64,000 nucleotides of DNA from contig NZ_LJZS01000008.1 of NCBI RefSeq assembly GCF_001314875.1, positions 62,001-126,000 on the forward strand, written 5' to 3'. A program made the position numbers and the translations under genes. The notes beneath the pieces were generated by a model. That model made no database searches and had not been told where the DNA came from. It saw nothing but the letters and a program-made list of their open reading frames with translations. This stretch comes from Halomonas sp. HL-48 (GTDB lineage: Bacteria > Pseudomonadota > Gammaproteobacteria > Pseudomonadales > Halomonadaceae). Below are positions 48,381 through 61,037 of the stretch, piece after piece. Position 1 is the first letter of the stretch, and every line of letters starts with the position of its first letter.

Positions 48381-48719
48381 TTACCCCGCCATGGCCGCCG
48401 CTATCTGTACGCTGCCATAGACCGCGACCCCAGCGGCCACCGGCCAGCCCAGCGAGCGTAGCCGCCACCATACCCCCAGGGTGACCCCTAACCCGATGGC
48501 GGTCGCGATCCATGAAATGGCGCTTGGCTTGACCGGCATGATTGAGACGCCCAGCACCGCCGCGATCATCAGCGGGCCGAGAATGACGAGCCACTGGGGC
48601 ATGTTGTTGAGGCCGGTCGCGCTGTCGATGCGGCGCTGCATCCACAGGAACGGCACCACACGCATCAGCAGGGTGCCCAGCGCAGACGCCACCACGGCGA
48701 TCCATAGTGAAGTACTCAT
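48381..48719 (-). CDS. azlD: AzlD-family branched-chain amino acid exporter subunit
   Basis: A 112-residue protein with about four membrane helices. VVASALGTLLMRVVPFLWMQ at the start, then LVILGPLMIAAVLGVS, fits AzlD/YgaH. Together with AzlC it forms a branched-chain amino acid (LIV-E type) exporter. Its start overlaps azlC by four bases. A CCAAGC-loop-GCTTGG hairpin (48363-48378) lies after the stop codon, with a T-run some 15 bases further on the minus strand. Confidence 0.88.
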   Translation of the reverse strand: MSTSLWIAVVASALGTLLMRVVPFLWMQRRIDSATGLNNMPQWLVILGPLMIAAVLGVSIMPVKPSAISWIATAIGLGVTLGVWWRLRSLGWPVAAGVAVYGSVQIAAAMAG

Positions 48720-49438
48720 ATCCCACGCCCCTCAGACCTGAACTTGACCGTATAAAAGCACAGCGCGCCACTGGCAGCGGCCAGGGGAATGGCCACGTTG
48801 CTCCCGCCGTAAAACGTCATCAGTAGCGCCGAGCCAATGGTGACGCTCAGCGCCACGGCCCAACGCTTATTTGTGAAGCGCGGCGCCACCATGGTGAGAA
48901 ATAGGGCGGGCAGCGCAAACGGCATGACTTCGCCGAGCAGGGGCCAGCGGGCGGTCAGCGTTTCCCCCGCCGTGGCACCCACCACGGTCCCGACTATCCA
49001 CACGCCCCAGGCGAGCAGGGCCGCACCGGTGAACCAGCCAAACCGGTCGGTGGCGGGCAGTTGGGGAAGCCGGGTGAGCGCCAGGGCAAATACCTGGTCG
49101 GTCAAACCATGCATCAGCCAGGGCCAGTGGCGGCTGCGCGGCAATAACGCCGCCAGGTTAGGGCCGTACACCAGGTGACGTACGTTAATCAGCAGCGTCA
49201 TGGCGACCACCAGCCAAAGCGGGGACCCCGCGGCCACCATGCCCACAAATAGGAACTGCGAGGCGCCGGCGTAAATCAGCGTCGAGATCACGGCGGCTTC
49301 CCAGGTGCTAAATCCGGCCTGGGTGGCGACCACACCAAACGACAGCGAGACCGGAATATAGCCGCCAAGCAGCGGAATGGCTTCGCGCACGCCGGTCAGC
49401 CAGGCCCGTGAACGATGGGAGGCGGTAAACGGTGTCAT
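48716..49438 (-). CDS. azlC: AzlC-family branched-chain amino acid exporter
   Basis: A 240-residue membrane protein of the AzlC/YgaZ family. REAIPLLGGYIPVSLSFGVV and ISTLIYAGASQFLFVGMVAA, followed by LINVRHLVYGPNLA, are family hallmarks. It exports amino acids such as branched-chain residues. It overlaps azlD and the upstream Xre-cupin gene by four bases each, forming a three-gene operon. Confidence 0.92.
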   Translation of the reverse strand: MTPFTASHRSRAWLTGVREAIPLLGGYIPVSLSFGVVATQAGFSTWEAAVISTLIYAGASQFLFVGMVAAGSPLWLVVAMTLLINVRHLVYGPNLAALLPRSRHWPWLMHGLTDQVFALALTRLPQLPATDRFGWFTGAALLAWGVWIVGTVVGATAGETLTARWPLLGEVMPFALPALFLTMVAPRFTNKRWAVALSVTIGSALLMTFYGGSNVAIPLAAASGALCFYTVKFRSEGRGI

Positions 49439-49965
49439 GGCGTGGCTCCCGGCGATGCATACACCACGGTCAACAGCAGCGTCGCCCAGGCGTCACGGGT
49501 GCGATAAAGATGGGGCTGGTCGGCGGCAAACGTCATGGCGTCGCCCGCTGTCAGCGTCCGCGTGGCGCCCTCCACCCCGGCTTCCAGCCAACCGCTCACC
49601 AGCGTCAGCGACTCAAACGTGCCGGGCGTGTGAGGTTCGGCGCGGCGTAGGGTGTGTGGCGCGCAGCGCATCCAGTAGGCATCCACCTTTGGCGTGTCGG
49701 CACCCTGATCGATAAGCCGTACTTGCACGCCGTCTTCACCCAGCGGCACCGATATGGGCGCCACCAGGGTGCCGAACGGCACGTTTAGCTGCACGGCCAG
49801 TCGCCAGATGGTGTCCAGCGTGGGGTTGCCGTTGCCTTGTTCAAGGCGCGACAGATTGGATTTGGCAACGCCTGCGGCGCTGGCCAATTGCGAAAGCGAC
49901 CAGCCGCGTTCGACGCGGAGTGCCTGTAAATGCTGCCCCAGAGTGCTGAGGGAGAGTGCGTCCAT
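49435..49965 (-). CDS. Xre-cupin transcriptional regulator of azlCD
   Basis: A 176-residue regulator. The helix-turn-helix (residues about 8-63) reads LSQLASAAGVAKSNLSRLEQ then GNGNPTLDTIWRLA. A C-terminal cupin domain (about 85-170) with TLTAGDAMTFAADQPHLY likely binds an effector, perhaps an amino acid. It heads the azlCD operon. Two abutting GTTC-N8-GAAC sites lie about 30 bases upstream of its start, so autoregulation is likely. Confidence 0.88.
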   Translation of the reverse strand: MDALSLSTLGQHLQALRVERGWSLSQLASAAGVAKSNLSRLEQGNGNPTLDTIWRLAVQLNVPFGTLVAPISVPLGEDGVQVRLIDQGADTPKVDAYWMRCAPHTLRRAEPHTPGTFESLTLVSGWLEAGVEGATRTLTAGDAMTFAADQPHLYRTRDAWATLLLTVVYASPGATP

Positions 49966-50392: not shown

Positions 50393-50704
50393 AGCACGTC
50401 TCCTTGTGAATGCGGATGAACATCGGCACTTGCCGATGGCTTTTAAGTTGTACCTATATTATACAAAGGTGACCTTATTAGAATGATTCCAGCGGCGCGA
50501 TAACCTGGGATATGTTAATGCACGATTGTCGGGAATGATTTGTAAGCAACGGGTAACGGCATGAGAGCTGGTAAAAAACACTTAAATAACATTTATTTGA
50601 ATAAATTATTGGGCAGACGTGCCATAAAAGCATTAGGGGGAGCTCATTATTGACGGCGATACAAAATAATTTGTGCAAAAGTTTGCAAGTGATACGTTTA
50701 GCCA
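50393..50704 (+). promoter_or_regulatory. Upstream region of the CsrB-like RNA
   Basis: The left part holds the leader hairpin (50421-50438) and promoter of the 97-residue gene on the minus strand. Further right, TGTAAG (50541-50546), six bases, then GTAACG resembles one good and one poor half of the GacA/UvrY site TGTAAG-N6-CTTACA, about 160 bases before the RNA. TTGTGC (50671) and TACGTT (50693), 16 bases apart, are candidate -35 and -10 boxes. All assignments here are tentative. Confidence 0.4.
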
Positions 50705-50894
50705 CTAAGGTCTGTGTTGTGCGCGACAGGGAATTGTCGATAACGCCAGGATGGCGGGCTTACGGACAAGCCGTTGATACAGGAAGTCGATGACAGGGCG
50801 TCACATTGCACGCACCACGGAAAGGTATCCAGGACGGATAGACACGACAGGATGTCGGTGAAACACATCAAGGCCTCCGAGAGGGGGTTTTTTT
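50705..50894 (+). ncRNA. CsrB/RsmZ-type CsrA-sequestering small RNA
   Basis: This 190-base stretch has no protein gene but is a string of short hairpins presenting GGA. Examples: CGACA/TGTCG around GGGAAT (50724-50739); CGCCA-GGA-TGGCG (50744-50756); GGCTT/AAGCC around ACGGAC (50757-50772); ACC/GGT around ACGGAAA (50814-50826); TATCC-AGGAC-GGATA (50826-50840); CGACA-GGA-TGTCG (50845-50857). About eight GGA motifs occur, several as CAGGA(C/T)G. It ends in a strong terminator (50870-50894). This is the architecture of CsrB/RsmZ RNAs, which titrate the translational regulator CsrA/RsmA. The exact 5' end is estimated. Confidence 0.8.
50870..50894 (+). terminator. Intrinsic terminator of the CsrB-like RNA
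   Basis: AAGGCCTCC pairs with GGGGGTTTT through a GAGA tetraloop (50879-50882), with G-T wobbles, and continues into seven T residues in total (50888-50894). The U-rich end and tetraloop make it a strong rho-independent terminator. The next gene on this strand starts 134 bases later. Confidence 0.8.
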
Positions 50895-51027
50895 GTGTCG
50901 GTATCCCGCCTCCGGCGTTGCGACGCTTCTTTACCCGAAGCCGATGTATCCTCACTCACTCGGCCACCATGGCGCTTCATGGCACCCTTTATGCATCACC
51001 ATTGAAGTACTGCGACGAGGAAGCGCA

Positions 51028-52430: not shown

Positions 52431-55400
52431 CTAACGTCGCTGAATAAACATTTCAAGCTGGTGGTGGTTGCCATCCAGAGGAATGCGTACTTTGCTTTTT
52501 TGGTCCGTCATTGGGCGGCCATCCAATCTTGCACTGAAGGCGTCATCGGTCATGATGAGCTTCACCGCGTAGTGGGTGGCGGCGATCGTGAGCGTCGCGC
52601 TAACGCCTGGCCAGTCATTGGGGAGGCAGGGATCAATGACCAGCCAGGCGCCTTCCCGGCGAATCCCCAATATGCCTTCAATGCCCGCGCGGTACATCCA
52701 GCCCGCTGAGCCCGTGTACCACGTCCAGCCACCGCGCCCGGTATGAGGCGCCACGGAATAGACATCTGCGGCCACCACATAGGGTTCCACCTTATAGCGG
52801 GCAGCCTCCTCAGCGGTGCGGGCATGGTTGATGGGGTTGAGCAGCGCAAACAGCTCGTGGGCCTTGCGGCCGTCGCCCAGCTTGGCAAAGGCGAAGATCA
52901 CCCACATCGCCGCGTGACTGTACTGGCCGCCGTTTTCGCGCATGCCAGGCGGGTAGCCGCCGATATAGCCAGGGTCTTTCTGGGGTTGGTCGAAAGGCGG
53001 CCAGAACAGCAGCGCCAATTGCTCGTCGTGCCTGACGAGCTCGCGCTCAAGGGAGCGCATGGCAAGTGCTGCTCGGTGCGGCTCTGCCGCGCCCGAGAGT
53101 ACCGCCCAGGTCTGAGCGATTGAATCAATCTGGCAGGCATCGCTGTCTTTGCTGCCCAGCCAGCTGCCGTCATCGTAGGTTGCTCGCCGATACCACTGGC
53201 CGTCCCAGGCGTTGCTTTCCAGCGCCAGGCGTAACGCAATGGCGTGGGCACGCCAACGCTCAGCGCGTGAAGGGTCCTGGCTCGCTGAGGGTTCATGCTG
53301 TTCGCGCTGTTCGGCAAACGGCAAAAATCGCTCAAGGGTATGCACTAGCAGCCAGCCTAACCAGACGCTTTCGCCTTTGCCTGCTTCGCCTACGCGGTTC
53401 ATGCCATCGTTCCAGTCGCCGCCACCGATCAGCGGCAAGCCATGCTCGCCGGTAAGTTCTAAGCTCTGATCCAAGCCGCGGGCGCAGTGCTCATAAAGTG
53501 AGGCGGTTTCTTCAGCCATCATCGGTTGGAAAAAGCTATCGTGCTCATCGGCCGCTAGTTCGGCACCCTCCAGAAAACTCACCGGCTCATCCAGTATGGC
53601 AGCGTCATGAGACGTCGCGATGTATTGGGCGCAGGCATAAGCCAGCCATACCCGGTCATCGGAAATACGCGTACGTACGCCCTGGCCGGAGTGGGGCAGC
53701 CACCAGTGCTGGACATCGCCTTCGACAAACTGACGGGAAGCGGCACGCAATAGATGTTCACGGGTCGTTTCGGGGCGGGTGAAGGTCAGCGCCATGCCGT
53801 CCTGCAGCTGGTCGCGGAAGCCATAGGCGCCGCTGGCCTGATAGAACCCGGAGCGCGCGGTGATCCGGCAGGCAATGGTTTGATACATCAGCCAGCCGTT
53901 GAGCATGATGTCCATGGCGCGGTCCGGGGTCGTTACCTGGATGGCGTTGAGCTGCGTTTGCCAGTGGGCCGTTACCAGCGCAAGCTCGGCATCGATATCG
54001 GCCTCGCGGTAGCGGGCGATCAGCGCCTGTGCCTCGGCGGTGGTGCTGCTTTGCCCCATCAGCACCGTGATGTCGATGCTTTCACCTACTGCCAGCGTCA
54101 CGCTGCGGCTGAGTGCGGCGCAGGGATCCAGCCCCGCGCCGTGGGTACCGGAAAGCGGGCGGCGCCGGCGTAGCCCGGCGGGCGCGGCCAGGCTGCCGCC
54201 GTAGCCGATAAATTCGCAGCGATCGGCCGTCCAGCTATCGGGTCGGGCGCCGATATCCAGAAACGCCACCCGGTCGGGAAAAGCGATATTCCAGGGATTG
54301 TCGACCAGCAGTGCGCCACTCTCAGGATCCGGGCGAGAGATAAGGAAAGGCGCCGAGCCGCTGCGCGAGGTGCCCAGCACCCACTCGGCGTAGGCGGTCA
54401 CTGAGAGCTTACGGGGTCGCCCGGAATGGTTGGTGAGGCGCAGCCGCGACAGCCTGACAGGGGCTTCCAGCGGCACCAGGTGCAAGAGTTCCAGCGCGAT
54501 GCCGTCTGCCTGATGCTCGAACTGGCTGTAGCCGAAGCCATGGCGCGCGGTATAGCGGCCCTGGTCGCGGATGGGCCGTGCGGTAGCGGTATACAGCGCC
54601 AGTGTCTCTTCATCGCGTACATAGAGGGCATCGCCGCTGGGGTCCGCCACAGGGTCATTGGACCACGCCGTCAGCTGGTTATCGCGGCTGTTGTCCGCCC
54701 ATACGTAGCCGGCGCCCTCCGCCGATACCTGAAAGCCGAAGCCTGCGTTGGCGATGACATTGATCCACGGCGCGGGCGTTGTGCTGCCCGCTTCAAGGAC
54801 CGTGACATACTCGCGACCGTCCAGGGCAAACCCGCCCAGGCCGTTGAAATATTCAAGCGCGGGCAGTGCGGGCGGAGGCGTTGTGTCGTTCGCGGTTGAG
54901 GGGTGGGGAAGCGCGCCCTTGGCGTCGAATTGCTTGGCTGAGGGGCGCTTCCCCGGCAGGGTCATGGCGAGTTGGTTGGCCATGCTGCCGCGATGGGCCA
55001 TCAGCGCAATGCAGGCGATCGACTGCAGCTGCGTGCGCGTTTCCAGGCTCATCAGGTCGGCGCGCAGGGCAATGACCGCGCCGGGGACGTGATCCTTTTT
55101 GAACCGCGGCTGAGCCTGGCTGCTGAGTACCGCGGTGTCAATGGCTTGCTGCAGGTCCTGAACATAGGAGGACGCGCGTTCATTGATAATCACGATGTCC
55201 ACGCTCAGCCGCTTCATGCGCCAGTATTCATGGGCGCGCAACAGCTGGCGTACCTGAGTGATATCGTCAAGGCTTTCGATGCGCATCAGGATGATGGGCA
55301 GGTCGCCGGAAATCCCGTGCTGCCAGAGGCGCGACTGCGGCCCAGCGCCACGTTCGATGGCCTCAGCGGGAGCCCTGAAGCGCGGGTCGGGGTACAGAAT

Positions 55401-58400
55401 CGGTGCGGCCAGGCGCTGAAAATCCGCTGCTTCTTCAGGCTGGATACCCAGATGGCGAAGCTGGACCTGCGCCTGGGTCCAGGCGAGGGTCTTGGCCCGC
55501 TCAAAGGCGCTGCGGTCGTGGTGCTTATCGATCAGGTCCATCAGCGCGTCGCGGGAGTCGGCGACCACCGTCCAGTAGGCGATACGGGCGTCTTTGCCGG
55601 GGGCCACGCGCAAGCAGTAACGCAGCGCAAACACGGGGTCCAGAACGCTGCCGACGCTGCCTGAAAGGTGTTCCCCCGCGGCCAGTGCTGAGGCGTTCAG
55701 CGTGCTCCGCCCGCGGCCCAGAAAGCGTGCCCGGTCGGTCTCGAATTCCAGCTCGCCGACGGTGACGCCTTCCACCACGGCAAAGTGGGCCGCCCAGACG
55801 GGCGGGTCGTCTGGCGAGCGCCGTCGTCGTGTGGCAATCAGCGCGTTGCAGGCTTCCAGGTATTCGGTCACCACAAACATTTTGGCAAACGCGGGGTGGG
55901 CGTTGTCGGTGTCCGGCGTGGTCAGGACCAGCTCCGAATAGGAGGTGATATCGATATCCCGGGCGCGGCGGCCGTTGTTGGTCAACGACAGGTGGCGCAC
56001 CTCGCTGTCGTCCTCGCCGGAAACCAGCACCTCCATATGGCTGGTGATATCGTCGTGGCGGTGGGTATAGCGCGCGTAGTCCTCGGCAAAGAGGGCGTGG
56101 TGGTGATCGTCTTTGGTGTCGCTGGCGGCCCTTGCCGTCTGCCCCGTGGCGGTCCATACGCCGGGGCGCTGGGTGTCGCGCAGAAAAATGAAACTGCCCA
56201 GGTGATCGCGGGTGGCGTCCGGCTGCCAGCGACTGATCGCGATGTTGCGCCAGCGGCTATAACCGCCGCCGGTGGCGGTGAGCATGACCGAGTAATAGCC
56301 GTTGGAAAGCAAATGCGTGACGGGCGGGCCATCGGCCGCGGTGGATACCCGGCGAATGGTTTGCGCCTCGTTGATGCTCTGGCTGGCCGTTGATTTCACC
56401 TCTTCGGCACGGGGGTGAAGAATGGCCACGTCCTTGGGTACGCGCTCCTGCAGCAGTAGTTCACTGGCCTGTATCATCGGCTCGCGATGGAAGCGCGCAC
56501 GCATCTGGCCGTGGTGGAGCGTATTGGCGATGGCCACGATGGTCATGCCCTGGTGGTGGGCCATGAAACTGCGCACAATCACGGCGGTTTCCCCGGCGGG
56601 TAACCGCGAGCGGGTGAAGTCGATCGCTTCATAAAAACCGTAGCGGCCGAGCGCGCCCATTTCCGCCAGGCGCTTGAAGTTGCGGCAGGCGCCGTTGGGG
56701 TCAACCATTGAGGCTAGCCCGGTGGCGTAGGGGGCGATGACCAGGTCTGCGGAAAGCCCGCGCTTGAGCCCCAGCCCCGGCACGCCGAAGTTGGAATATT
56801 GATAGGTGAATTCCAGGTCGCGGGCGTTATACGCCGATTCGGAGATGCCCCAGGGCGCTGTGAGCTGTGCTGCGTAGGTTTCCTGGCGCTTGACCACCAG
56901 CCGGTTGGTTTGCTCGAGCAGGCTGCCCGCCGGGGCGCGCATCACCAGCGACGGCATTAGGTATTCAAACATCGACCCCGACCAGGAGATCAGTGCTGAG
57001 TCGAAGGTGATAGGCGTTGCCGCGCGGCCGAGCCTGAACCAGTGGCGAGTCGGCACATCGCCTTTGGCAATCGCAAACAGGCTGGCCAGCCGAGCCTCGG
57101 AGGCCAGCAGGTCGTAGCAGCTGGTATCCAGGCAGTTGTCGTCCAGCGAGTAGCCAATCGACAGCAGCTGGCGCTCGCTATCGAGCAGAAAGGCGAAATC
57201 CATGCCCAATGCCAGACGCCGTGCGGTATCGGCGAGCTGTTGCAGGCGCGCGGTGAGATCCTCTGCTGGCGGGTCGTTGCGGTCGGCGCGATGCTGGATA
57301 ACCGCGCTGTTGAGTGCGGCCACCCAAAACAGCAGCTCCTCGCTGTGCGCCTCGTTGCCGTGGTCGTTGACCAGGCACAAGGCGTCGTCCGTCAAGGGAG
57401 CGAGCGTCGCCAGGCAGGCCGACGACAGGGCCTCCCCTTTAAGCTGCGCGTCAATCGCGTCAAAGGCCTCGCTAAGCGGAGTGGCGACGGCCGTCGGCAG
57501 CGTTGTGGCTTGCTTGAGCGCCTGACGCGCAAGGGCCAGCGTGTCGGCTATCCCCGGGCGAGGGTCCGCAAGGCACTGGGCGGCCTGCCAGGCTTCGCAG
57601 GCGTTGGCGATCGTAATCAGGTGACCCGCCAGGTTGCCGCTATCCACGGTCGAGACGTAGCGCGGGTCCAGCGGGCGCAGGTCATGGGTGGCGTACCAGT
57701 TATAGAAGTGTCCCCGGTAGCGCGGCAGGCCAAGCATGACGTCAAGCGTCGCTTCGAGTCGCTCCAGTGCCTGTTGGGTGCCGATCCAGCCGAAATCCCG
57801 CGCGGCCAGCGTCGAGAGCAGGTACAACCCCATGTTGGTCGGCGAGGTGCGCCGGGCGAGGACGGGGTGAGGGTCCTCCTGGAAGTTATCCGGTGGCAGG
57901 CGGTTATCCGCCGCGGTGACAAAGGTTTCAAAAAAGCGCCAGGTGCGCCGCGCAATCAGGCGTAACTCGAGCGCTTCCTCGGCTGACACCGTCGGCTGAA
58001 CGACCGCGCTATTGCTGCTGCTTAGCCATGCGGCCACGGCGGGGGCGGCCAGCCAGAGCAACGCCATGGGGAGTGCAATTGGCCAGACGTGGCTAGCCGT
58101 CCATAGCGTGGCGATGACCACCGCCAGGCCCAGCGCCGTGCCGGGGGCCATGCGCTGGTAGAACCCTTGTACCGTGAGCGGCGGGCTTTTCATCGACTGG
58201 GCGGCGGAGGTCCACTCAAGCAGGCGCCGGTGGGTGATCAGCACGCGAACGAGGGTTTTGGCAATAGCATCCAGCATGCGCCACGCCTGGTCGGGTAGAA
58301 AGATTACCTGCAGCAGGCTCTGCGCGCTGCCCAGCTTCAGCTCGTCAAACCACAGATGATAATGATGACGCAGCTGCTGCCGCGCGCGAAACGGGATAAA

Positions 58401-61037
58401 GGTGCTCGCCAGGGAGAGCAGGGCCGGTGCCCCAACGACCGCGAGCAGCAGCAGGGTGCTGATAAGCGCCATGCTCAGCGGCAGTTGCCAACTGACGGCC
58501 AGACTGGCGAGGACTAACGGCGGTAACACTGAGCGGCGCAGATTGCCGAGCATTTTCATGCGCCCGGTGAGCGGCAACCCCGGGGCCATCAGCCAGGGCA
58601 GCAACTGCCAGTCGCCGCGGGTCCAGCGGTGCTGGCGTTTGGCCGCCACGTCGTAGCGGGCCGGGAAGTCTTCGATCACTTCGATATCGGAGGCAAGCCC
58701 GGCGCGGGCAAAAATCCCCTCGAACAGATCGTGGCTGAGCAGGCTGTTGTCAGGCACCCGGTTGATCAGCGAGGCTTCAAAGGCATCCACCGCATAGATG
58801 CCTTTACCGGCGAACGAGCCTTCGCCGACCAGGTCCTGGTAAAGATCCGAAATCGCCGCCGCGTAGGGGTCGATGCCGCCAGGCGCCGAAAACAGCCGCT
58901 GATAGATGGAGCCTTCTCCCCCGGTGGGTAGCGAAGGGGTGACACGCGGCTGCAGGATGGCATAGCCCTCCACCACCCGGCGCTGTGTCTGATCCAGGCG
59001 TGGCTGGTTCAGCGGGTGGGCCATCTTGCCGATCAGCTGGCTGGCCGCCCCTCGGGGCAGCCGGGTGTCGGCATCCAGGGTAATTACATAGCGCACGTCG
59101 GTGGGTAGCGGAGGCGGATCGATAAAAGTGGTATCGAGCGCGCCGCGCAACAGCCGGTTTAGCTCCTTGAGCTTGCCCCGCTTGCGTTCCCAGCCCATCC
59201 AGGTGTTTTCAGCGGCGTTGAATACCCGGCGGCGGTGGAGCAGAAAGAAACGCCTGTCGCTGCCGGAAGCCTGGGGGCAATAACGAAGGTTCAACTGCTC
59301 GACCGCGGCGTGGGCGGCGGACAACAGCGCCGCCTCGCCGGGTAATGCCGCCTGGTCGGCATCAACGCCGTCCAGCAGCAGCGCATAGGCGAGCGCCCCG
59401 TCACCGCTGGATAAATGATGCACTTCGAGGCGTTCGATCTGCTCGCGCAGGTCATCTTCGCCGGTCATCAGCGTGGGCACGGCCACCAGGGTTCGAAGCC
59501 GGGGTGGTACTCCTTTGGAGAGGTCGAGACCGGGCAACGGCTGGGCGTCGATGCAGTGGATGATCAGCCGGTTCACGATCTGTGTGGCGACGTCCACAAT
59601 GGGTAAAAACCCCACCACACCTAGCAGCATGAGCCAGGCCAGCGGCGCCTCACCGAGCGGCAGCGGAAGCCAGAGTAACAGACTGCCGGCCAGCGTCATC
59701 AGGCCAAGCGTCACCGCCGCCATCATCACGCAATAGCTGCGCATGCCGTGATGAACCAGCGTGCGGCGCAGCCACTGACGCGCAGAGGGTTCGAAGTCCA
59801 CCTTGTATTCAAGTTCAGCGCGGCCGGAACCGATCAGGAAGTAGCCGGGATCACCCATCCGCGCGGCTTCTGTCGGGTCGTCGGCTTTGTCTCTGGCCTC
59901 GCTGGATAAATAGAGCGCCGCTTCCACCACCTCAAGCTCGGTATGGTGTGAGCCCCGGGCGAGCTGCTCTACGGCACTGCGATATTGATTGCGGGTGGGG
60001 AAGTCGAGCTGCGTAAAGCAGCTCTGCTGGCGCAACCGTGTGTCCACCGGGCTGATACTTTCAAACAGCTCGGTCCAGTCGATGCTGGAAACGAAGCGCA
60101 TGCTGGTGATGACATTGCGTACGGTCACATTTGCCGCGCCCTGGCGCTGCTGGGCGTGCTGAACCATGTCATCGATGGTTTCACCGCGCTGGCTGAGCTG
60201 CTCATCCAGCCAGCCCACCAGCGGACTGCTGCGCGGGTCCAGGCCGCGCAACCGTTTGGCGAGCTGCGCGGTGAAGGGCTCGGCCAGCGGTCCGGTGTGG
60301 AACGTGAAGTTGCTGGTTTCCAGATGAAAGGTATGGCGCTCCTGTGCCGTCTGCTGCTCGGTAGGTTTGAGCCATCGGGTCGCGAGCGTGTCGGCGTCGT
60401 CCCGTGCCGTTTGCTCGCTGATCATCTGGTCAGCAAGCCGGCGCAAATTCTCGATCAGCACAATACGCAGCGAGATCGCCAAGGCCCATAGCTCGCCAAT
60501 GGTCAGCGGCTGAACGCGCTGGTAAGCGGTCATGAAGGTTTGCAGCGTATCGAGATCGAGATGGCTGTCGGTGTGCGCCACAAACGCCCAGGCAATGCCG
60601 AAAACCCGTGGGTAACCGGCAAACGGGCCCTTGGCGAGCTTGGGTAGCTGACGGTAATAGCCGGGGGGCAGGTCGCCGCGAATCTCGCGAATCTGGGCTT
60701 CGATAAGATGGTAGTTGTCGAGCAGCCAGGCGGCGGCTGGCACGATATCGCGGCCCTCTGCCAGTGCTTTGGCACTGGCGCGGTAAGCTTTCAGTAGAGT
60801 GGCGGCGTTATCGTTGAGCCGGCGCGTCAACGACACCACCTTGGGAGGCGTGGCGGTCACTTCCTGGGCATGCGCCAGGCTGCCGGCGTGCTGTTCAAGC
60901 CGCTCTGCGCTGAACAGTTCTTCTCTGACGGGCAGCGTCGAATCCCACGGCGCAGCAAACGCATGGTGCGGACGCACAAAACGGACATATTGGTTCACAG
61001 ATTCCATCCCGGTGAAAGTGGGCTCGACAGGCCGCAA
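52431..61037 (-). CDS. ndvB: Cyclic beta-1,2-glucan synthase (NdvB/ChvB-type)
   Basis: A 2868-residue giant membrane enzyme. Residues about 1-400 are cytoplasmic; helices follow near 415-480. The GT84 glycosyltransferase domain (about 510-830) contains YVITLDADTRLP and KRQHRWTRGDWQLLPW. More helices lie at about 840-1000. A glucoamylase-like domain (about 1050-1490) and a GH94 phosphorylase-like domain (about 1520-2860, with GGGDWNDGMNRVG) complete the NdvB layout. It makes, elongates and closes cyclic beta-1,2-glucan for the periplasm. The start is TTG 61037 behind AAGGA; the ATG at 61007 is an alternative. Confidence 0.93.
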   Translation of the reverse strand: MRPVEPTFTGMESVNQYVRFVRPHHAFAAPWDSTLPVREELFSAERLEQHAGSLAHAQEVTATPPKVVSLTRRLNDNAATLLKAYRASAKALAEGRDIVPAAAWLLDNYHLIEAQIREIRGDLPPGYYRQLPKLAKGPFAGYPRVFGIAWAFVAHTDSHLDLDTLQTFMTAYQRVQPLTIGELWALAISLRIVLIENLRRLADQMISEQTARDDADTLATRWLKPTEQQTAQERHTFHLETSNFTFHTGPLAEPFTAQLAKRLRGLDPRSSPLVGWLDEQLSQRGETIDDMVQHAQQRQGAANVTVRNVITSMRFVSSIDWTELFESISPVDTRLRQQSCFTQLDFPTRNQYRSAVEQLARGSHHTELEVVEAALYLSSEARDKADDPTEAARMGDPGYFLIGSGRAELEYKVDFEPSARQWLRRTLVHHGMRSYCVMMAAVTLGLMTLAGSLLLWLPLPLGEAPLAWLMLLGVVGFLPIVDVATQIVNRLIIHCIDAQPLPGLDLSKGVPPRLRTLVAVPTLMTGEDDLREQIERLEVHHLSSGDGALAYALLLDGVDADQAALPGEAALLSAAHAAVEQLNLRYCPQASGSDRRFFLLHRRRVFNAAENTWMGWERKRGKLKELNRLLRGALDTTFIDPPPLPTDVRYVITLDADTRLPRGAASQLIGKMAHPLNQPRLDQTQRRVVEGYAILQPRVTPSLPTGGEGSIYQRLFSAPGGIDPYAAAISDLYQDLVGEGSFAGKGIYAVDAFEASLINRVPDNSLLSHDLFEGIFARAGLASDIEVIEDFPARYDVAAKRQHRWTRGDWQLLPWLMAPGLPLTGRMKMLGNLRRSVLPPLVLASLAVSWQLPLSMALISTLLLLAVVGAPALLSLASTFIPFRARQQLRHHYHLWFDELKLGSAQSLLQVIFLPDQAWRMLDAIAKTLVRVLITHRRLLEWTSAAQSMKSPPLTVQGFYQRMAPGTALGLAVVIATLWTASHVWPIALPMALLWLAAPAVAAWLSSSNSAVVQPTVSAEEALELRLIARRTWRFFETFVTAADNRLPPDNFQEDPHPVLARRTSPTNMGLYLLSTLAARDFGWIGTQQALERLEATLDVMLGLPRYRGHFYNWYATHDLRPLDPRYVSTVDSGNLAGHLITIANACEAWQAAQCLADPRPGIADTLALARQALKQATTLPTAVATPLSEAFDAIDAQLKGEALSSACLATLAPLTDDALCLVNDHGNEAHSEELLFWVAALNSAVIQHRADRNDPPAEDLTARLQQLADTARRLALGMDFAFLLDSERQLLSIGYSLDDNCLDTSCYDLLASEARLASLFAIAKGDVPTRHWFRLGRAATPITFDSALISWSGSMFEYLMPSLVMRAPAGSLLEQTNRLVVKRQETYAAQLTAPWGISESAYNARDLEFTYQYSNFGVPGLGLKRGLSADLVIAPYATGLASMVDPNGACRNFKRLAEMGALGRYGFYEAIDFTRSRLPAGETAVIVRSFMAHHQGMTIVAIANTLHHGQMRARFHREPMIQASELLLQERVPKDVAILHPRAEEVKSTASQSINEAQTIRRVSTAADGPPVTHLLSNGYYSVMLTATGGGYSRWRNIAISRWQPDATRDHLGSFIFLRDTQRPGVWTATGQTARAASDTKDDHHHALFAEDYARYTHRHDDITSHMEVLVSGEDDSEVRHLSLTNNGRRARDIDITSYSELVLTTPDTDNAHPAFAKMFVVTEYLEACNALIATRRRRSPDDPPVWAAHFAVVEGVTVGELEFETDRARFLGRGRSTLNASALAAGEHLSGSVGSVLDPVFALRYCLRVAPGKDARIAYWTVVADSRDALMDLIDKHHDRSAFERAKTLAWTQAQVQLRHLGIQPEEAADFQRLAAPILYPDPRFRAPAEAIERGAGPQSRLWQHGISGDLPIILMRIESLDDITQVRQLLRAHEYWRMKRLSVDIVIINERASSYVQDLQQAIDTAVLSSQAQPRFKKDHVPGAVIALRADLMSLETRTQLQSIACIALMAHRGSMANQLAMTLPGKRPSAKQFDAKGALPHPSTANDTTPPPALPALEYFNGLGGFALDGREYVTVLEAGSTTPAPWINVIANAGFGFQVSAEGAGYVWADNSRDNQLTAWSNDPVADPSGDALYVRDEETLALYTATARPIRDQGRYTARHGFGYSQFEHQADGIALELLHLVPLEAPVRLSRLRLTNHSGRPRKLSVTAYAEWVLGTSRSGSAPFLISRPDPESGALLVDNPWNIAFPDRVAFLDIGARPDSWTADRCEFIGYGGSLAAPAGLRRRRPLSGTHGAGLDPCAALSRSVTLAVGESIDITVLMGQSSTTAEAQALIARYREADIDAELALVTAHWQTQLNAIQVTTPDRAMDIMLNGWLMYQTIACRITARSGFYQASGAYGFRDQLQDGMALTFTRPETTREHLLRAASRQFVEGDVQHWWLPHSGQGVRTRISDDRVWLAYACAQYIATSHDAAILDEPVSFLEGAELAADEHDSFFQPMMAEETASLYEHCARGLDQSLELTGEHGLPLIGGGDWNDGMNRVGEAGKGESVWLGWLLVHTLERFLPFAEQREQHEPSASQDPSRAERWRAHAIALRLALESNAWDGQWYRRATYDDGSWLGSKDSDACQIDSIAQTWAVLSGAAEPHRAALAMRSLERELVRHDEQLALLFWPPFDQPQKDPGYIGGYPPGMRENGGQYSHAAMWVIFAFAKLGDGRKAHELFALLNPINHARTAEEAARYKVEPYVVAADVYSVAPHTGRGGWTWYTGSAGWMYRAGIEGILGIRREGAWLVIDPCLPNDWPGVSATLTIAATHYAVKLIMTDDAFSARLDGRPMTDQKSKVRIPLDGNHHQLEMFIQRR

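Follow-up and report, generated by a model that had tools for sequence, protein, structure and literature searches.

A candidate CsrB/RsmZ-type, CsrA-sequestering small RNA in Halomonas sp. HL-48

The 64,000-nt stretch of Halomonas sp. HL-48 analysed here (contig NZ_LJZS01000008.1, positions 62,001–126,000; hereafter the window) carries an intergenic unit of 177 nt (50718–50894, + strand) between a small hypothetical gene and a gene of the major facilitator superfamily (MFS). We consider this unit, termed the window RNA, to be a candidate CsrB/RsmZ-type small RNA (sRNA) that would sequester CsrA as a sponge, at a probability of roughly 90%. This reading draws on sequence and modelled structure, with both the transcription of the RNA and its binding to CsrA being predictions, and is well supported by the GGA motifs in its loops, its terminator, its orthologues (6 of 82 genus genomes), RF00018 as the best sub-threshold Rfam family, and the presence of CsrA-, UvrY-, and BarA-like genes in the genome. 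The original prediction had described about 190 bases of short stems, with GGA around eight times in the loops, several of them as CAGGA(C/T)G, and a GAGA-loop terminator with seven T residues. All of this was borne out by our analysis, which found seven short stem-loops followed by the terminator (the named structure), eight GGA sites (50730, 50749, 50764, 50782, 50819, 50832, 50836, and 50850; six in loops), and four copies of CAGGA(C/T/A)G. The parts of the unit are as follows.

50718–50894, + strand: putative CsrB/RsmZ-type sRNA; start deduced from the −10 box with an uncertainty of about 2 nt
50725–50738, + strand: hairpin 1, loop containing GGGAA; 75% of cells paired in six orthologues
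50744–50756, + strand: hairpin 2, loop AGGAT; 79% of cells paired in six orthologues
50757–50772, + strand: hairpin 3, loop ACGGAC; five of five pairs kept in 6/6 orthologues, none varying
50773–50791, + strand: hairpin 4, loop with AGGA, in the window's own fold
50791–50803, + strand: consensus hairpin 5, with AGGGC as the loop in the window
50826–50840, + strand: hairpin 6, loop AGGAC; five of five pairs kept in 6/6 orthologues, none varying
50845–50857, + strand: hairpin 7, loop AGGAT; 100% of cells paired, two pairs varying by G-U
50870–50894, + strand: intrinsic terminator, GAGA loop, seven T; read directly and called by a terminator scan

The number of GGA motifs is unremarkable, with at least eight occurring in 87 of 300 dinucleotide shuffles. 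Their placement is far less ordinary, as the six found within hairpin loops in the minimum-energy fold of 50718–50894 were not equalled or exceeded in any of 1000 shuffles (five loop GGA in one shuffle, four in five), nor in separate runs of 300 and 200. Across a grid of 2128 segments of 177 nt covering the 64-kb window (both strands, step 60), a single segment held at least four loop GGA (it has four, and none reached five); this segment begins at 50701, on the window RNA, and two of the five segments with three loop GGA also overlap it. The density of AGGA/ACGGA is likewise the highest in the window at this position. E. coli CsrB, used as a positive control, placed 9 of 22 GGA in loops, a count equalled in 0/60 shuffles. 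The fold energy of 50700–50897 gave a z of −2.97, with 1/200 shuffles folding as well.

Of 4227 Rfam families scanned permissively against 651 bases, RF00018 (CsrB) ranked first, matched over the whole model at 22.3 bits (E 3.8e-4), short of the gathering cut-off of 71 bits. The window RNA is CsrB-like, yet by the family's own criterion it falls outside RF00018. The alternative that fares best is an sRNA acting by base pairing (Hfq-type), or some other RNA with incidental GGA loops, which would sit comfortably with a GGA number no higher than in shuffles; we regard it as improbable, given the loop placement far above shuffles and CsrB as the best Rfam match.

The genome also encodes the partners expected of a CsrA-sequestering sRNA. 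There is one csrA gene, whose product and E. coli CsrA share 86% identity over 59 aa; it is preceded by an aspartokinase-like frame (by look), with a tRNA-Ser downstream. A UvrY/SirA/GacA equivalog (290.1 bits, above the cut-off of 280; 55% identical to UvrY) adjoins a uvrC-like frame (by look), as does uvrY in E. coli. Finally, a hybrid kinase of 912 aa is BarA-like, with BarA as its best NCBIfam model (645.7 bits, below the equivalog cut-off of 890). Four traits of the sponge class are present, namely GGA mostly in predicted loops, a stand-alone intergenic unit with a terminator, CsrA, and a BarA/UvrY-type pair, while a fifth, an upstream UvrY/GacA box (TGTAAGN6CTTACA), is not supported.

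A DNA search of 38 genomes found the window RNA in three (self included). The small upstream gene has relatives in 54/82 genus genomes, and among the 30 loci returned for it, the six closest stand out by their AGGA count and align with one another. A covariance model built from these six orthologues (R1) returned, over the 82 genomes, the same six (self included) at E below 1e-60, the next best being 2.6e-7. Conservation is higher in the RNA body than in the DNA immediately before it: 20-column blocks of the body scored 0.76 to 0.97, except two blocks holding a 34-nt insert, compared to 0.50 to 0.73 in the stretch from the upstream element to the promoter, both described below. Indels of 1, 4, and 34 nt among the orthologues disfavour a coding reading, and the 34-nt insert, seen in G013, adds two GGA. 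The named hairpins pair in 92.6% of cells, compared to 28.7 to 53.0% when slid along the alignment, a figure biased upward by the structure having been drawn from the same six sequences. In hairpin 4, the consensus has a shorter three-pair stem inside that of the window's own fold, with 94% of cells paired and one compensatory change in G049. The loop of hairpin 5 is AGGAC in the five other orthologues rather than the AGGGC of the window, and this stretch is paired differently in the window's own minimum-energy fold.

Lying on the same strand, with its start codon 134 nt downstream, the MFS gene might take the window RNA as its leader, the GGA hairpins letting CsrA act in cis. We find this slightly harder still to credit than a base-pairing sRNA: a strong terminator closes the unit ahead of the gene, and G013 keeps the RNA with an opposite-strand frame next and the MFS gene elsewhere. 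The nearest named relatives of the MFS protein (Halovibrio, Halomonas, Vreelandella, and Franzmannia) are 88 to 93% identical, and R1 gave nothing better than E 8.9 in 33/33 named loci of MFS relatives; we have rejected synteny of the RNA with the MFS gene. The original prediction had further placed post-transcriptional control of biofilm, motility, and stress genes in this window, which is not warranted, as CsrA sponges act in trans and a different gene follows the RNA in G013. As a separate observation, the listed MFS frame of G014 (L037:2773–3546) is a C-terminal piece of just 257 aa, beginning right at the terminator of the RNA.

Several results weigh against a CsrA-sequestering sRNA. The RNA occurs in only 6/82 genus genomes, and the window has no match to any Rfam family at gathering cut-offs, including the CsrB/RsmZ models with which the original prediction was to be checked. 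When 15 loci were scanned (E up to 1), G014 was the only one of the six orthologues to match the CsrB/RsmY clan (RsmY, 24.2 bits, E 0.06; cut-off 57). The loop GGA of the window RNA drop to three to five when the ends are shifted (eleven 177-nt segments, starts 50700 to 50740), and the five other orthologues, each folded singly, gave 6, 3, 2, 2, and 3, counts that shuffles equalled in 0, 10, 38, 41, and 13 of 200, respectively. Support from covariation for the GGA hairpins in related genomes, a further test of the original prediction, is nearly absent, with one compensatory cell in 34 pairs (24 pairs invariant, four with a one-sided change, five departing by unpaired cells only, and one with a two-sided change), and shuffles equalled all five covariation measures (66 to 411 of 500). 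Such scant covariation could be read as chance hairpins in intergenic DNA, which the body conserved in six genomes across a diverged flank and the fold z given above make barely credible.

RF00018 exceeded its cut-off in 0/82 genus genomes, in a search so insensitive (strict filtering, with scores for 16 candidates in each genome) that the window RNA itself was not returned even at E 0.1. One RF00018 match, in G073 (L070), was dropped by eye, as it runs over the end of an apparent coding region and its terminator.

Upstream of the window RNA, we noted the following features.

50683–50711, + strand: proposed promoter TTGCAA-17-TAAGGT; −10 positions T1, A2, and T6 in 6/6 orthologues, TTGCAA in 5/6
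50674–50687, + strand: inverted repeat TGCAAA-N2-TTTGCA over the −35 box; exact in 5/6 orthologues
50500–50512, + strand: conserved element ATAACCTGGGATA, lying at −213 to −216 in 6/6 orthologues; proposed as an activator site

A consensus promoter scan called none at 50683–50711. The TGTAAG-N6-GTAACG sequence that the original prediction had likened to a GacA/UvrY box is indeed present at 50541–50558 (+ strand; 3/12 mismatches), but it did not hold up as a GacA/UvrY site. Matches as good or better numbered five in the 64-kb window compared to 12.7 expected by chance, and a comparable match was present in just 1/5 other orthologues, namely G013 (three mismatches at −179, nearly the same distance as −175 in the window), the best matches in the other four carrying four to five mismatches. 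We have accordingly rejected this box; a degenerate GacA/UvrY site may nonetheless lie upstream of the RNA.

The activator site that we propose for the window RNA is the 13-bp element ATAACCTRNGATA at 50500, with conserved letters ATAACCT..GATAT (its distance was measured from a single column of the alignment, some two bases ahead of the inferred start). In the csrB results reported for E. coli, UvrY crosslinks in the region from −222 to −142 as well as close to the promoter, and so the distal place of the element fits an activator site (PMC4682653). That UvrY itself binds this element, the sequence of which is not a UvrY box, is a guess.

Across the genus, ATAACCTRNGATA occurs at 37 places in 28 of 82 genomes, compared to 19 places for the reversed pattern; loci were screened for 30 of these, three further places belong to orthologues of the window RNA, and four lie outside the screen. 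Eleven of the 37 are upstream of GGA-rich, terminator-ended intergenic units, comprising the six orthologues, another RNA shared by G041, G019, and G020, and a unit each in G040 and G055. The element had been chosen after sight in the first two groups, while the G040 and G055 units were found by the element alone, the former at a place without an R1 report. Its position differs between the window RNA, where it lies 230 bases before the first GGA, and the five other units (57 to 70 bases). The element is also not exclusive to the window RNA, as its own genome holds a second place, within a response-regulator-like gene.

The G040 unit (L124:1537–1916) is an intergenic unit of 380 nt with 21 GGA, larger than the window RNA, and its assumed start lies 36 bases after the element; the G055 unit comprises 154 nt with six GGA. 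Shuffles equalled their loop counts in 0/60 and 0/200, respectively, and those of G041, G019, and G020 in 0, 14, and 1 of 200; the G020 unit also gave a weak RsmY match in the 15-locus scan (25 bits, E 0.038). Four more weak R1 matches appeared CsrB-like by eye: L077 (G076), L078 (G059), L083 (G072), and L093 (G088). Their best matches to the 13-bp element carried 6, 5, 3, and 4 mismatches, respectively (4.3 to 4.5 in shuffles). The loop counts of the first three were equalled by 3, 71, and 3 of 200 shuffles, respectively, and that of the last by 14 of 60. Together with the eleven units bearing the element, a candidate sponge is found in 15/82 genomes, with these four and the five non-orthologous units less certain than the window RNA. 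We tentatively suggest, though we think it somewhat doubtful, that CsrA sponges in the genus are prone to turnover, bodies differing in sequence and place (~100 to 380 nt, 4 to 21 GGA) being swapped between species, while in a subset ATAACCTRNGATA, and not the GacA box, would persist and mark a lineage-specific means of switching them on.

Other leads were set aside. R1 matches to model positions 111–172 were dropped by eye as terminators after tRNA-like sequence (loci printed), and a GGA-rich stretch of L010 appeared to be coding. A second copy in the HL-48 genome was also rejected, R1 at E up to 10 giving two weak places, of which, by eye, one was the end of a gene and the other the start of a different gene. 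A double CAGGANG pattern is common in this genome (53 matches, two of them the window RNA, compared to two for the reversed control), and among the other 51, the 30 screened for open frame, AGGA count, and terminator (four printed) included none that was sponge-like.

Elsewhere in the window, a near direct repeat (TTGTAC-N5-TTATAC, 50448–50464) lies upstream of the small hypothetical gene and is kept by the six relatives with small changes. At 48381–49965 (− strand) lies an ordinary amino acid export set, made up of the transporter genes for AzlC and AzlD and an HTH-cupin (helix-turn-helix) regulator. A reading frame of 2868 aa with a TTG start (52431–61037, − strand) may, judged by look, encode a giant enzyme active on carbohydrates, for example a cyclic glucan synthase.

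Halomonas serves in the production of polymers and exopolysaccharides, and in other bacteria such products are under the control of Gac/Csr circuits. A table in a 2020 review lists Halomonas anticariensis with GacS-GacA and, bracketed, CsrA, and gives its sRNA as 'Unknown' (PMC7366521). At the level of titles and abstract openings, with most subscription papers outside this scope, the Halomonas and Chromohalobacter literature on Csr, Gac, and sRNAs names no CsrB-type RNA of Halomonadaceae. The window RNA appears to belong to a known kind of sRNA, the CsrA sponges, and to be new in this lineage. It provides a concrete candidate, below Rfam cut-offs, for the missing sRNA link in a related genus, and the 13-bp element provides a promoter element open to testing.

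Compared to known systems, the window RNA shares with CsrB/RsmB (E. coli CsrB) serial AGGA/ACGGA hairpins, an intergenic location, a terminator, and the same loop statistic. E. coli CsrB is larger (369 nt and 22 GGA, compared to 177 nt and 8 GGA) and has a UvrY box with one mismatch at −191, whereas none is supported for the window RNA. RsmY/RF00166-type RNAs are presumably similar to it in size and design; the G014 orthologue has its weak RsmY match, while no RF00166 match was found in the HL-48 genome at the gathering cut-off. In Marinomonas mediterranea, CsrB and CsrC carry the GacA box TGTAAGN6CTTACA, in contrast to the window RNA, for which no such box is supported (PMC8523701). That species, like HL-48, combines a BarA/UvrY-like pair, CsrA, and GGA-rich sRNAs, and its CsrB and CsrC were predicted by sequence and seen by RNA-seq (PMC8523701).
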